Shown here in pieces: positions 2,579 to 9,573 of a stretch of 29,622 nt of DNA (its first letter is position 1; each line of letters starts with the position of its first letter). The position numbers were made by a program, and so were the translations under genes. A model generated the notes under the pieces. It did not search any database, was not told the DNA's origin, and saw nothing but the letters and a program-made list of their open reading frames with translations. Origin of the DNA: a virus; IMG/VR virus record IMGVR_UViG_3300028706_000028, positions 1-29,622 of that record; one strand, written 5' to 3'.

Positions 2579-2957
2579 AGAAGCTACACACGGTCAGATA
2601 ATGGAAAAGATTGTCCAGTTGGAAGCGAGATGTGATGATGGTTGTGGTAACGTGTTTACTAAGAGATTCCCTTTAGGGGTTATTTTAGCTATTGCGTTAC
2701 AAACTTTTGGAATCATTTGGTGGGCAGCTGGCATAGACAATACTCTTACAAATATGAAAACTCTTACAACTACAATTCCTAACGAAGATCAAGTTAAGAA
2801 TTACATTGCTGAAAGGGAAAAGATATATATGGACATGGACAGCAAAAGACATCTAGGTATGTCTGAACGTGTGTCTAGAGTAGAAGGCAACTTTAAATTT
2901 ATAGAAAAATCCTTGAATAGAATAGAAAAGAAACTAATGCTAATTGGGAAGGACTAA
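2568..2957 (+). CDS. Single-pass membrane protein with C-terminal coiled coil
   Basis: A 129-residue protein with one clear hydrophobic segment (about 34-56, FPLGVILAIALQTFGIIWWA) preceded by the basic TKR. This predicts a cytoplasmic N-terminus of about 33 residues (with C22 and C26) and an exported C-terminal part. Residues about 98-126 form a heptad-like charged helix. The topology could suit a holin- or spanin-like lysis accessory or a membrane anchor, but no family is recognised and no lysis gene adjoins. It overlaps terL by 11 nt and abuts the HNH gene (shared ATG/TAA base), so it is co-translated with the packaging genes. Confidence 0.75.
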   Translation: MANEEATHGQIMEKIVQLEARCDDGCGNVFTKRFPLGVILAIALQTFGIIWWAAGIDNTLTNMKTLTTTIPNEDQVKNYIAEREKIYMDMDSKRHLGMSERVSRVEGNFKFIEKSLNRIEKKLMLIGKD

Positions 2958-3331
2958 TGGACTTAAAAAGAGATCTCGTTAAGTACGTAAGAGATAGGGC
3001 AAAATCACAGTATCACAAAGCTTCAAGCTGTGCGATTTGTGGCAGTGATGAGAAGTTAGATTTTCATCACTATTACTCTATGACTGAAATGCTCGAGAAA
3101 TGGTTAGCTAGAAATAAGCACAACCCTAGAACTGCTGAAGAGATAATGGCGATTCGTGACATATTTATTGCAGAGCATCATACCGAAGTGTACGACTCTA
3201 CAGTAACTCTATGCCACGTGCACCACTTAAAACTTCACTCAGTTTATGGGAAGAGGCCTTCTCTAGCAACCGCAAATAAACAACCTAATTGGGTTGAGAA
3301 ACAGAGAGGAAAACATGAACTGGCTAGATAA
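2957..3331 (+). CDS. HNH endonuclease
   Basis: A 124-residue beta-beta-alpha-metal nuclease. The zinc-knuckle cysteines are CAIC (25 and 28) and C86 in TLCHVHH; the catalytic/metal His residues are in LDFHHY (37-38) and HHLKLHSVYG (89-90 and 94). The charged helix after the first HH fits phage HNH proteins in packaging clusters. In phages such as HK97 an HNH protein next to terL/portal stimulates terminase cutting of cos DNA; a similar role is inferred here. A free-standing homing function is the alternative, less favoured because the gene is tightly embedded in the operon (ATG overlaps the previous stop, and the 3' end overlaps the portal gene). Confidence 0.88.
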   Translation: MDLKRDLVKYVRDRAKSQYHKASSCAICGSDEKLDFHHYYSMTEMLEKWLARNKHNPRTAEEIMAIRDIFIAEHHTEVYDSTVTLCHVHHLKLHSVYGKRPSLATANKQPNWVEKQRGKHELAR

Positions 3332-4537: not shown

Positions 4538-4566
4538 TTGACATTTGGAGAAAATACTGGTATAAT
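4538..4566 (+). promoter_or_regulatory. Consensus sigma-70 promoter P2 for capsid gene
   Basis: TTGACA (4538-4543), 17-bp spacer, TATAAT (4561-4566), with TGG before the -10 exactly as in P1. Transcription would start near 4573, so the in-frame TTG at 4572 is unlikely to be used and the capsid starts at 4614. The 5' leader holds a 10-bp palindrome AGTGCGCACT (4585-4594) that could be a hairpin or operator half-sites. Confidence 0.9.
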
Positions 4567-4613
4567 AGTGGTTGTTGGTGGATCAGTGCGCACTCAATTT
4601 TATGGAGATAAGC

Positions 4614-6527
4614 ATGACTAACAAAACTTTAAACCTAGTCGGACAGTTTGAAAAATCAAGTTCAGACGACTCCGATGTTTTAAAGATTAAGGGTTACGCT
4701 AATACAACTTCCAAAGACCGCGTAGGCGATATCATAAGAGAATCGGCTTGGTTAAAGGGAGGATTGGATAATTATTTAAAGAACCCAATCATTTTAGCGT
4801 ACCATAATCACTCAAAGCCAATCGGAACTACTGTAGACTACAGTGTCAGTTCAAAAGGGTTGGAAGTCGTTGCAGAAATTTCTTCTGCAGCTGGCGAAGT
4901 ATATAACTTGATTAAAGATGGCGTTCTTAAAACGTTCAGTGTCGGATTTTCCATCAAAGACGCTGAATACGATAAAGAGGATGAAATTTTTTACATCAAG
5001 GATTTGGAGCTACTTGAAATTTCGGTAGTTTCCGTACCTGCAAACCAGGACTCTACTTTTAGCATTGCTAAAGCGTTAGGTGACGATTATGCAGACTTTA
5101 AGAAAGAGTATATTGAATCTGAGGAAATAGAAACAAACGTTGATAACTCCCCAGAAGCAAGTAATGAAACTATCCTAAAGGAGAACTTAGATATGGATAA
5201 ATTAGAAGAGTTAACACTCAAAATGGAAGCTTTAGAGAAAGCGGCTGCTGATAAAGTTGCTGCTGATAAGGCAACTATTAAAGCTGAAGCTAAGGCTGCT
5301 GAAGAAGCGGTCCAAGTAGAAGTTGATAAAAAGAAAGCTGCACAGATTGAAGTAATTTCAACTGGTGTAGAACGTTTAGAAGCAGAAGTTGCTAAACGTT
5401 TAGAAGATAATGATGCGTCGGTTAAAGACGTTATTGAAGGGTTACGCGCTGACCTTAAAGAGAACAAGGACGAATTAATAGCTCTTCGTGAGTCTAAAAT
5501 GCAGTTCGCCACTTCGGACGAAGTAGCTCTCTTTAGTACAGAGCAGAAGATGGATGCGGTTTTAGCCTCTAAAATCTTCCGTATGCCGATTTCAGATACT
5601 AAGACGTTTAAGAGTATCGTAGAAAAGGCTGCTCGTCATGGACATGTTCCTAACGAGAATTGGGAAACTGAGTACAATACTCAGATTTTTGATATTGCAC
5701 AACAGAAGTTAGTAGTTGCTGATCTATTCGGTACTATCAACATGAGTTCTGCTCATATGGATATTCCATCTAACCCAGGTGCAACCGCGGGCGAATGGAT
5801 TGTAGGAACTGCACAGGCCGGTACTGGCGCAGGACAAGATGCAATTCGTATGGGTACTACTTCACTAACTGCTCATAAGTTAGTATCTAAGGAGTATATG
5901 AACTACGAAGAAGAAGAAGATGCAATTATGCCTATTCTTCCAATGATTCGTGGCAATATCGCACAGCGTATCGCACATAGTACAGATGCAGCGGTTCTTA
6001 ATGGTCAAGGTGCTCCGGCAGCTACTCCTAAAGACCCAATGACTGGTCTTACTAAGATGTCAGAAGGTGCTGCTACTAAGGTTAGTACTACTGAAGTTGT
6101 TGCTAGCGCTAAGGTAACTGTTGATTATCTACAGGCTACACGTCGTAAGATGGGCTTGTATGGTCAGAACCCAGGCGAAGTTACTTATATCGTATCTACA
6201 GATGGTTATTATGACTTGATGGAAGACGAGAAGTTTACTTCTTCTGATAAGGTAACTGCTGCTAATCTAATGATGATTAAAGGCTTTGTTGGTTCTGTTA
6301 ACGGTTCACCTGTTATCGTATCTGACAAGTTCCCTGCAAAAGCTGCGGGTAAGGTTTGTGCTATGGCGGTTAATACTCAGTACTTCAAGAAGGGCATCCT
6401 TCGTGGACTAGTTACTGAATCTTTCCGTGACATCGACAACCAACGTACTGCAATTGTTTCTAGCGCTCGCTTCGGCTTCGTTCAGTTACAAGGCACTACT
6501 GCTGCTCAGTTAGCTTATAAAGCTTAA
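4614..6527 (+). CDS. Prohead protease-scaffold-major capsid fusion (HK97 fold)
   Basis: A 637-residue polyprotein. Residues about 1-160 are an S78/U35-type prohead protease: H64/H66 in LAYHNHSKP, the nucleophile S109 in LKTFSVGFS, and the strand LLEISVVSVPAN. Residues about 194-305 are a highly charged Ala/Lys/Glu coiled coil like the HK97 delta (scaffold) domain. The rest is the shell protein, with an N-arm and LFGTINMSSAHMDIPS into the HK97 fold, ending LQGTTAAQLAYKA. In HK97 protease and capsid are separate genes. The ATG at 4614 is preceded by GGAG 6 nt away. A terminator follows. Protease self-cleavage should release mature capsid; the cleavage site is not predictable by eye, though the segment about 300-320 is likely. 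Confidence 0.95.
   Translation: MTNKTLNLVGQFEKSSSDDSDVLKIKGYANTTSKDRVGDIIRESAWLKGGLDNYLKNPIILAYHNHSKPIGTTVDYSVSSKGLEVVAEISSAAGEVYNLIKDGVLKTFSVGFSIKDAEYDKEDEIFYIKDLELLEISVVSVPANQDSTFSIAKALGDDYADFKKEYIESEEIETNVDNSPEASNETILKENLDMDKLEELTLKMEALEKAAADKVAADKATIKAEAKAAEEAVQVEVDKKKAAQIEVISTGVERLEAEVAKRLEDNDASVKDVIEGLRADLKENKDELIALRESKMQFATSDEVALFSTEQKMDAVLASKIFRMPISDTKTFKSIVEKAARHGHVPNENWETEYNTQIFDIAQQKLVVADLFGTINMSSAHMDIPSNPGATAGEWIVGTAQAGTGAGQDAIRMGTTSLTAHKLVSKEYMNYEEEEDAIMPILPMIRGNIAQRIAHSTDAAVLNGQGAPAATPKDPMTGLTKMSEGAATKVSTTEVVASAKVTVDYLQATRRKMGLYGQNPGEVTYIVSTDGYYDLMEDEKFTSSDKVTAANLMMIKGFVGSVNGSPVIVSDKFPAKAAGKVCAMAVNTQYFKKGILRGLVTESFRDIDNQRTAIVSSARFGFVQLQGTTAAQLAYKA
5177..5195 (+). promoter_or_regulatory. 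Internal ribosome binding site for a nested capsid start
   Basis: AAAGGAG at 5177-5183 is followed after 9 nt by an in-frame ATG (5193-5195), Met194 of the fusion. The site lies exactly at the junction between the protease linker and the scaffold coiled coil. It is stronger than the ribosome site of the full gene, implying separate synthesis of a protease-free capsid precursor. Confidence 0.75.
5193..6527 (+). CDS. Nested scaffold-capsid product from internal start
   Basis: Initiation at 5193 would give a 444-residue protein beginning MDKLEELTLKMEALEK: the delta-like coiled coil plus the entire HK97-fold shell domain, without protease. Its size and architecture match an ordinary HK97 gp5-type precursor. 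This would allow hundreds of capsid subunits per head with a few full-length fusion molecules bringing protease, comparable in logic to the lambda C/Nu3 internal start. The ribosome site and in-frame ATG are seen directly; the use of the start is inferred. Confidence 0.65.
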   Translation: MDKLEELTLKMEALEKAAADKVAADKATIKAEAKAAEEAVQVEVDKKKAAQIEVISTGVERLEAEVAKRLEDNDASVKDVIEGLRADLKENKDELIALRESKMQFATSDEVALFSTEQKMDAVLASKIFRMPISDTKTFKSIVEKAARHGHVPNENWETEYNTQIFDIAQQKLVVADLFGTINMSSAHMDIPSNPGATAGEWIVGTAQAGTGAGQDAIRMGTTSLTAHKLVSKEYMNYEEEEDAIMPILPMIRGNIAQRIAHSTDAAVLNGQGAPAATPKDPMTGLTKMSEGAATKVSTTEVVASAKVTVDYLQATRRKMGLYGQNPGEVTYIVSTDGYYDLMEDEKFTSSDKVTAANLMMIKGFVGSVNGSPVIVSDKFPAKAAGKVCAMAVNTQYFKKGILRGLVTESFRDIDNQRTAIVSSARFGFVQLQGTTAAQLAYKA

Positions 6528-6545
6528 TATAGTTTAGGCTATTAG

Positions 6546-6575
6546 ATTGGGGGAGGTAAAACTTCCCCAATTTTT
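6546..6575 (+). terminator. Intrinsic terminator after capsid gene
   Basis: A 10-bp stem (6546-6555 with 6562-6571, one G-U pair) with loop GTAAAA is followed by five T. It lies 19 nt after the capsid stop and would end or dampen the capsid transcript before the connector genes. Confidence 0.85.
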
Positions 6576-7190: not shown

Positions 7191-8318
7191 ATGTCAGCAA
7201 GAGCAAAGATAGTAAAAGCACTAGTTGCTAAACTTAATGAAATTACCTCAAAGCAAAATTTTAGTATTGCTGGTTCAGCTGTACCAACATTTGGTAGTTT
7301 AATTTCAGAACTTAATAATGCGTTAAGAGGTGCTACCGCAAGCCTCGATGGAAATAACGATTTGCGAGTTACAAACACTTCCGCAGGGAGTGAAGCGAAG
7401 ATAGGCTTAAGGGACATCGGTTCCAGAAGACTGTTTTCTAGTTTAAGCGGTTATTCTAAAATAAAAAATGCTGTAGACGGCACCGATCCAACCAATGGTT
7501 ATCAGAGGGTATCTTTAGATCCTTCTTCAACTAACACAACCGATCCTACAGGGTTAAATATAAGTAAAACTTATACAACCACTATTACTATTGATGGTGC
7601 AGCGCAAGCCGTATCCTTAGCAGGAAGTAATTGTACAACTTATAATACATTAGTAAATGAGTTGAATGCAAATACAAGTGGGTGTACAATAAAATTTGTC
7701 GGCTCTACTGGTGAACTCCAGGTTAAAAGCACTTCTAGCGGAGTGACCTCTAGCGTATCTATTGTAGATACAGGTACTGATAAATTATTTAGTTCTCTTA
7801 CTAACTACGATAGTATTAATACAGCAATTGCTGGGATAGATGCTGCCGCAGGGTATCAAGTTGTAGAGTTAACAGGCTCACCTACTTTAGGTTCAGCTAC
7901 GGGACTTCAAAACTTAGATACTTTTGTTTATACGTGTGAAGTAACAGTACCTAACAGATTTAAAACAGATCTCTACCAAAATGTAACTGATAAGTTAGTA
8001 TTCTGGGACGAAATCGTAGATTTTCCATTTGTAGGGGTTACAGCAGGAAACGAAACTAGAGAATATTTACCCGGCGCTTTTAAGTGGGGGTATCTAACTT
8101 TAACAATTAGGATGTATGTCCAGGAAGACGACCCAGTCGAGGCCTTGGAAAGCATGTTATATGAGGTTGAAAATAAGATTGAAGAAAACTCTGACTTAGA
8201 GTTTGAACTTGGAAAACGCGTGGCTGATATGAGGCTTATATCAATCACAACTGATGAAGGACTTCTAGCACCTATAGGTGTTGGAGAAATTCAACTACAA
8301 GCTCAATATGAAATATAA
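7191..8318 (+). CDS. Tail terminator-like protein with two inserted beta repeats
   Basis: A 375-residue protein. An N-terminal helix (1-20) and the C-terminal 115 residues (about 258-375, including LVFWDEIVDFPFVGVTAG, ETREYLPGAFKWG and DEGLLAPIGVGEIQLQAQY) look like a tail-terminator/completion protein, normally about 130-150 residues. Between them lie two related blocks of about 117 residues: one with SIAGSAVPTFGSLISELN and RRLFSSLSGYSKIKNAVDG, the other with SLAGSNCTTYNTLVNELN and DKLFSSLTNYDSINTAIAG. They are Ser/Thr/Gly-rich, predicted beta, probably exposed on the neck. GGAG lies 6 nt before the ATG. The terminator assignment is inferred from position before the tube gene. Confidence 0.72.
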   Translation: MSARAKIVKALVAKLNEITSKQNFSIAGSAVPTFGSLISELNNALRGATASLDGNNDLRVTNTSAGSEAKIGLRDIGSRRLFSSLSGYSKIKNAVDGTDPTNGYQRVSLDPSSTNTTDPTGLNISKTYTTTITIDGAAQAVSLAGSNCTTYNTLVNELNANTSGCTIKFVGSTGELQVKSTSSGVTSSVSIVDTGTDKLFSSLTNYDSINTAIAGIDAAAGYQVVELTGSPTLGSATGLQNLDTFVYTCEVTVPNRFKTDLYQNVTDKLVFWDEIVDFPFVGVTAGNETREYLPGAFKWGYLTLTIRMYVQEDDPVEALESMLYEVENKIEENSDLEFELGKRVADMRLISITTDEGLLAPIGVGEIQLQAQYEI

Positions 8319-8337: not shown

Positions 8338-9573
8338 ATGGCAACAAGTCATCTTAATCTAATCCGTAATAGTAGGGTTTTTATCAGTACTACTGATAAT
8401 AACTCTGATATGAAAGCAGCAAACACTTTTGAACTTAATGTTCTAGATGGTTTCTCTTTCACTCAGACCACTGCTACTGCGGAAATTACTTTGAATGAAG
8501 CAGGTACTAACCCAGATCGTGGTAAGAAATCTTACAATACAGCACGTAACCCGGTTGACTGGTCATTTACAACATATATTCGTCCCTATAAACGTGAGGC
8601 AACTCCTTCAGGCGGTAGTGCTACTAAATATACTAGTGCTGTCGAGAAGTTGATGTGGGAAGCGTTCTTAGGTAAAGGACGTACTACAGGTACCAACACT
8701 GATACTAAGTGGACCCCATTTGATAATTTCAATGAAGGTGCTACTACTACTGGAATGGAAGGTGATACTGACGATTCCGACGTAGATGTTTTACTACCTG
8801 TGTACATTTTCTTCGAGCTATCTGACGGCAGTAATAAGACTTACTACCGTATCAATAAAGCATTGGTTAACACTGCTGAAATTGACTTCAGTATCGACGG
8901 AATTGCACAAATTGCTTGGGGTGGTCAGGGTGAAACATTGGAAAATGTAGAATCCACGGATATGCCTACTAGTGGTATCAATAAGTTTATGCCTATTGCT
9001 AACTCATCAGCTGGCGAAACTTTAGCAGGTACTCACGGTGTTGGAGCCACAGGCTCTGTTCAGAAGGTGTTCCCTGCTGAGTTCATCCGTAATAAGCTAT
9101 CTACTGTTTCACTACAAGATGCTAGCAGCTCTAAGTATTACCAAGTAGTACTTACTGGCGGGTCTATTAGTTTAGACAATGGTGTAACATACTTAACTCC
9201 TGATGAGTTGGGTGTTGTGAATACTCCAATTGGAGGGTTCACAGGTACTCGATCTATCTCAGGTAGTATGAATTGTTATTTGCGTTCTGGTGATACTGTA
9301 AATACGGGTGGTTCAAGCGACCCTTATGACTCAGGTAAGTTGGTAGAAGACCTACTAGCAGCCACTACCCAAACAGATAATAGTTTTGATCTAACGTTGA
9401 GTATGGGTGGAGCAACTGCTCCTAAAGTAGACTTCACTTTCGCTCAAGCGCAGTTAGAAGTTCCTTCTATAGACGTAGCAGATGTTATTAGTACAACTAT
9501 TAACTTTGTTGCAGAAGGTTCTGCTATTACTTCAGCAGACGAAATGGACATTAAGTACATCGCTACTTTGTAG
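8338..9573 (+). CDS. Major tail tube protein
   Basis: A 411-residue protein lying between the tail terminator and the assembly chaperones, the standard place for the tube gene. It is beta-rich and starts with the tube-like segment HLNLIRNSRVFIS, then a domain with RNPVDWSFTTYIRP. The second half repeats the plan: AEFIRNKLSTVSLQDASSSK, then TGTRSISGSMNCYLRSG. This suggests two fused tube domains, as in T5 pb6, where trimers build a pseudo-hexameric ring. Single-domain tube proteins are about 150-250 residues, so the length fits a duplication. AAAGGAG is 7 nt before the ATG; a strong terminator follows, as suits a very abundant protein. Confidence 0.85.
   Translation: MATSHLNLIRNSRVFISTTDNNSDMKAANTFELNVLDGFSFTQTTATAEITLNEAGTNPDRGKKSYNTARNPVDWSFTTYIRPYKREATPSGGSATKYTSAVEKLMWEAFLGKGRTTGTNTDTKWTPFDNFNEGATTTGMEGDTDDSDVDVLLPVYIFFELSDGSNKTYYRINKALVNTAEIDFSIDGIAQIAWGGQGETLENVESTDMPTSGINKFMPIANSSAGETLAGTHGVGATGSVQKVFPAEFIRNKLSTVSLQDASSSKYYQVVLTGGSISLDNGVTYLTPDELGVVNTPIGGFTGTRSISGSMNCYLRSGDTVNTGGSSDPYDSGKLVEDLLAATTQTDNSFDLTLSMGGATAPKVDFTFAQAQLEVPSIDVADVISTTINFVAEGSAITSADEMDIKYIATL

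Follow-up and report, generated by a model that had tools for sequence, protein, structure and literature searches.

A protease, a delta-like scaffold and a capsid domain in one gene

The window, meaning the whole 29,622-nucleotide stretch of viral DNA analysed (IMG/VR record IMGVR_UViG_3300028706_000028), carries genes for terminase, portal, head completion, tail terminator and the major tail protein, arranged as in a T5-type head module. Among them, on the plus strand at 4614..6527, lies a fused protease-delta-capsid gene of 637 codons plus stop, delimited by ORF translation, profile searches and AlphaFold. Head modules of the Demerecviridae have separate protease and capsid genes; the window has one ORF. 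Two small ORFs flanking the terminase and portal genes (363-701 and 2957-3331) weakly match homing/HNH endonucleases (phrog_12131, phrog_8048). Further downstream, the product of 7191-8318 has a tail terminator domain (PF23818) at residues 252-374 behind a long N-terminal extension with two similar repeats, and is unlike the tail-completion protein of Demerecviridae. The idea that this gene, too, might be a fusion with an internal start was rejected, as no in-frame start preceded by a Shine-Dalgarno (SD) sequence is found at its domain border.

The fused product begins with a Peptidase_S78 prohead protease domain (residues 1-166; 4614..5111), identified by Pfam, an alignment of 33 relatives and AlphaFold. 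Pfam placed Peptidase_S78 (PF04586) at residues 15-153 with 64.1 bits (cut-off 21), and TIGR01543 matched the 637-residue product with 67.2 bits (cut-off 59). His64, Ser109, Glu132 and Glu135 were invariant in the 33 aligned relatives, and from knowledge of the family we take His64 and Ser109 to be the catalytic residues. The AlphaFold model, built from 33 relatives (mean pLDDT 72.6, pTM 0.51), resolved the protease at 1-166, disorder at 168-197 (pLDDT <50) and a capsid fold at 309-637. Two long helices (197-244 and 253-294) make up a coiled-coil region at 197-294. The disordered linker was accordingly drawn at residues 167-193 (5112..5192), and the delta-like scaffold region, from AlphaFold and the alignment, at 194-338 (5193..5627), with its end at a cut site inferred from T5.

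The remainder (5628..6524) encodes the mature capsid domain, with a T5 pb8-like HK97 fold. Phage_capsid was found by Pfam at residues 353-524 (32.5 bits, cut-off 24.2), the top six Foldseek matches of the capsid part were all DT57C and T5 capsids (E 2e-22 to 6e-13), and phmmer matched it to the T5 pb8-type capsid at 1e-34. Lys338 is nearly invariant in the alignment of relatives, and a cut after it would leave 299 residues, the mature T5 chain length in 5tjt, given an alignment uncertain by one residue. Maturation cleavage is predicted at or adjoining Lys338. The NCBIfam model for a protease/capsid fusion, NF045541, reached 55.8 bits over residues 59-289 only, below its curated cut-off of 525. 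Taken together, Pfam, AlphaFold and Foldseek confirm that a single ORF runs from an S78 protease through a disordered linker and a delta-like coiled coil to a capsid of T5-type HK97 fold, bearing out the preliminary description of a protease, a delta-like coiled coil and a shell domain in a single gene.

An internal start codon at the domain border

The first start, ATG 4614, is preceded by GGAG at 4604..4607 (SD energy -5.2 kcal/mol). A second SD sequence, AAAGGAG at 5177..5183, lies 9 nt ahead of an in-frame ATG at 5193-5195 (codon 194). At -7.2 kcal/mol it exceeds the SD of the first start in strength and is equal to the one that precedes the major tail protein gene at 8338 (-7.2 kcal/mol). 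Initiation here would give a protease-free capsid precursor of 444 residues, comprising delta and capsid (5193..6527, plus strand). Met194 stands at the border between protease and scaffold, because in the AlphaFold model the protease ends at 166, disorder covers 168-197 and the coiled coil starts at 197. The motif, its spacing and its position at the domain boundary, all pointed out in the preliminary description, agree with the sequence and the AlphaFold borders.

The internal start is conserved beyond amino-acid requirement

Conservation was assessed in 133 fused relatives, reduced to 74 lineages at <80% identity; these share ancestry and are hence not fully independent. One fused relative (L056:276-2221) is frameshifted within its protease region, which may be an assembly error. 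Each gene was scored for the best SD-preceded in-frame start per 40-codon window, with a threshold of SD <= -4.4 kcal/mol. The 40-codon window at the border had an SD and an in-frame ATG or GTG in 72 of the 74 lineages (97%), against 0-16% of lineages for windows not overlapping it. An in-frame start at initiation-compatible spacing was present in all 74, and L101 and L153 had only a weak SD at the border.

One alternative to a second start is that nothing but the fusion is made, giving protease and capsid at 1:1, with the protease releasing itself by a cut in the linker and the SD-like sequence either non-functional or a by-product of Lys-Glu or Gly-Glu codons in the linker. Lys-Glu codons do look SD-like, and the disordered linker could be cleaved. 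Protease-capsid fusions have also been published before, and databases and papers annotate them as single proteins (PMC5513430, PMC8508860). Against this stands a recoding control, in which the linker was rewritten 500 times with each gene's own synonymous codons. The summed border SD energy was -381.7 kcal/mol as observed and -175.5 ± 20.5 after recoding (lowest sum -241.7), a signal about 10 standard deviations beyond expectation. The SD is moreover encoded by varied peptides (LKENLDM, NKGEEPV, KGDTQV, KKEWNM) in more than one codon phase, and the motif is nearly absent elsewhere in the gene. Lineages of the KEWNM type add little individually (recoding P 0.3-0.8) because their amino acids alone yield a similar SD-like sequence.

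The start codon itself argues in the same direction. It is ATG in 64 lineages and GTG in 10, and in those ten GTG makes up only 2-15% of Val codons. Since the site had been chosen for having the best linker start, a plain product of GTG shares would overstate the case; the recoding test covers that choice and, combined over the ten lineages, gave Fisher P = 6e-8. A polyprotein with no second start is thus improbable, and the recoding results indicate that the border SD signal is maintained beyond what the amino acids require. Conservation in relatives, which the preliminary description had proposed as a check on the internal ribosome site, therefore holds and exceeds amino-acid constraint.

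An SD-like sequence placed exactly at a domain border could instead slow the ribosome to aid folding, without initiation. A pause needs no start codon, however, and an ATG or rare GTG at initiation spacing accompanies the motif in every lineage. Local RNA structure is also low: the 71 nt around the nested start fold at -8.0 kcal/mol compared with -13.5 elsewhere in the gene (Wilcoxon P = 4e-12), a difference that may partly reflect the A-rich composition of the linker. We consider a pause site very unlikely. Still harder to credit is a programmed frameshift in the A-rich SD region that frees the protease and leaves the fusion as a by-product. A-AAA-AAG does precede the SD in a few lineages (e.g. 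L040, L047), but no such heptamer occurs at the junction in the window, most lineages listed lack one, and the conserved start codon would be left unexplained.

SD strength gave a less uniform picture. Over the 74 lineages the internal SD was stronger than the first in 27, equal in 10 and weaker in 37, and the two were equal on average, so that as a proxy for product ratio it shows no family-wide bias. The preliminary description had suggested that one gene may give a rare fusion and an abundant protease-free capsid. Two products are favoured by the conserved start and by the fit to the Demerecviridae capsid described below. A rare fusion and abundant capsid as a family trend finds no support in the sequences of the 74 lineages, although in this window the two SD energies make a fusion rarer than the nested capsid plausible.

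The predicted nested product corresponds to the separate capsid precursor of Demerecviridae

The closest named phages to the window gene are T5-like Demerecviridae. They have the same protease and capsid families as the window (pb11 and pb8 in T5), the same gene order, delta ahead of the shell domain and a capsid start with an SD directly after the protease. They differ in that a stop codon separates the protease gene from the capsid gene in all 8 Demerecviridae examined, whereas the window lacks that stop and has its capsid start within a single ORF. Full or near-full IMG/VR relatives were fused in 133 cases and split in none. Among the matches listed by a tblastn search of INPHARED with three diverse fused proteins, no isolate had its T5-type protease and capsid annotated as one fused gene; where a match came in one piece (JSF10, JSF12, phi 3, Proteus Stubb and VTCCBPA139), the annotation gives two genes that share a frame. 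A record named as a Corynebacterium phage (PQ773600.1, 6679-8618) carries protease and capsid of the Demerecviridae type, a sign that its host may be mislabelled or the record contaminated.

Averaged over the 69 complete lineages, the segment ahead of the nested start has 194 residues and the nested product 457 ± 16, compared with 191-210 for split proteases and 458-475 for split Demerecviridae capsid precursors. By start position and length, the predicted nested product thus matches the separate capsid precursor. The junctions read AAG GAA AAC TAA ACC ATG in JSF10 and AAG GAG AAC TTA GAT ATG in the window, as if a single stop codon separated the two layouts; in so variable a linker the likeness illustrates the idea but does not prove descent. 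Split Demerecviridae formed one clade, whose support was 1.0 in both the concatenated and the capsid tree and 0.55 in the protease tree. Under midpoint rooting, the only rooting used, this clade falls inside fused diversity, and the two-gene T5 layout could itself be a product of fission.

The correspondence with the split capsid start would also be expected of a relic, inherited from a separate capsid gene and now unused. Unused sites should decay, yet the SD and start persist at 35-45% amino-acid identity despite changes of codon phase and start codon, and we regard a relic as highly improbable.

Transcription signals frame the gene

A sigma-70-type promoter, TTGACA-N17-TATAAT with TG before the -10 (an extended -10), lies directly ahead of the fused gene at 4538..4566 on the plus strand, 76 nt upstream of the first start, with 12/12 consensus matches. 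The same 12/12 promoter is found 75-77 nt upstream in the close relatives L011 and L014 and is not conserved in the wider family. Downstream, a sequence scan located an intrinsic-terminator-like hairpin on the plus strand at 6544..6573, between the capsid and head-completion genes. Such a hairpin follows the capsid gene in 61 of 67 lineages, compared with 2 in shuffled controls. A consensus scan of the plus strand from 4614 to 5193, a method whose reach does not extend to phage-specific promoters, gave no promoter-like site. With one promoter upstream, one terminator downstream and no good internal promoter, a single mRNA with two starts is the simplest reading.

A model of two in-frame starts on one mRNA

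We propose that two in-frame starts on one mRNA give a 637-residue fusion and a 444-residue delta-capsid product, 3'-co-terminal and co-assembling, and consider this very probable. The model builds on the domains, the internal start, its selection and the correspondence with Demerecviridae as observed; translation from both starts, co-assembly, dosing, the cut site and the product ratio are what it predicts from sequence. Initiation at ATG 4614 would produce the protease-delta-capsid fusion, and initiation at ATG 5193 on the same mRNA the delta-capsid precursor. Sharing delta and capsid domains, both products would co-assemble. Each fusion molecule in the prohead would bring a protease inside as part of the shell lattice, with the nested product supplying protease-free shell subunits. 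After assembly, cleavage by the protease near Lys338 would remove delta and the linker, leaving 299-residue subunits from both precursors.

Candidate border starts in other protease-capsid fusions

Actinophage fusions (Arthrobacter clusters AM, AU and AN, Rhodococcus RRH1, Gordonia) resemble the window in having a protease-linker-capsid gene, many with an SD and ATG at the border, and differ in that their capsid lineage is distinct from that of the window. The set studied comprised Rhodococcus RRH1, Gordonia, Arthrobacter and Hadban fusions with IMG/VR relatives, 51 lineages in all. In 53% of them an SD-preceded ATG occurred <=40 codons past the protease, while other windows had one in 2-10% (61% against 12-26% for any start codon). 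The recoding test was weaker here, at -238.7 compared with -176.1 ± 17.0. No description of a nested start in these fusions was found in PMC5513430, and a scan of genome contigs with the KylieMac/Hadban alignment yielded no relative.

Pseudomonas phage MD8 gene 5 likewise holds protease, scaffold and capsid in one gene (PMC8508860), with a ClpP-type protease as the difference; no mention of an internal start in it was found in that paper. In the ClpP-type group around MD8, an SD and ATG follow the protease in 12 of 12 lineages, which is suggestive only because the amino acids there are conserved. A border start in these two further families is thus indicated by sequence more weakly than in the T5-type family. 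It is quite possible, though we would stop short of calling it probable, that phage fusions of protease and capsid contain, as a general rule that covers at least three families, a nested start for a protease-free capsid, the gain or loss of one stop codon interconverting fusion and fission.

Other candidates were rejected. The coat of ES18, considered as a further fusion, is encoded by a separate gene 9, and the coat matches in Moraxella Mcat9 and Mcat10 are separate overlapping genes. In ES18 gp7, a protein of unknown function (L232:4542-5807), an in-frame ATG at codon 308 with an SD of -8.7 kcal/mol precedes a possible scaffold-like tail, a layout that resembles C/Nu3.

Comparison with known nested systems

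In lambda, the scaffold Nu3 is nested in frame and 3'-co-terminal within the gene of the ClpP-like protease C, and the capsid protein E is separate. The window shares an in-frame, 3'-co-terminal internal start that would remove the protease, as judged here from sequence and conservation. By contrast, the nested product of lambda is scaffold only, that predicted in the window includes the capsid domain, and the protease of the window belongs to S78. A logic like C/Nu3 but applied to the capsid, as put forward in the preliminary description, is thus upheld in sequence for both the nested in-frame start and a nested ORF that holds the capsid. Herpesvirus UL26 and UL26.5 are overlapping in-frame genes producing a protease-scaffold and a protease-free scaffold, the short form having its own promoter and transcript and not being a capsid. 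The likeness lies in protease-bearing and protease-free forms from an in-frame overlap; the difference is that UL26.5 has its own promoter, whereas the consensus scan of 4614-5193 found no good one.

Protease-capsid fusion genes and C/Nu3-type nesting are already known, and the sharing of one gene by protease and scaffold is stated in PMC8508860. No report of a capsid start nested within a fusion of this kind was found in the open literature, to which our search was mostly confined, and the arrangement is apparently undescribed. If such genes made only the single protein that is annotated, each shell subunit would bear a protease, a puzzle that the conserved nested start removes, and the annotation of such fusion genes in many phages should change. 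Dosing of a tethered protease by two starts on one mRNA is a concrete hypothesis, testable in cultured phages of the other two families. The fused and T5-type split layouts would then be linked through one stop codon.
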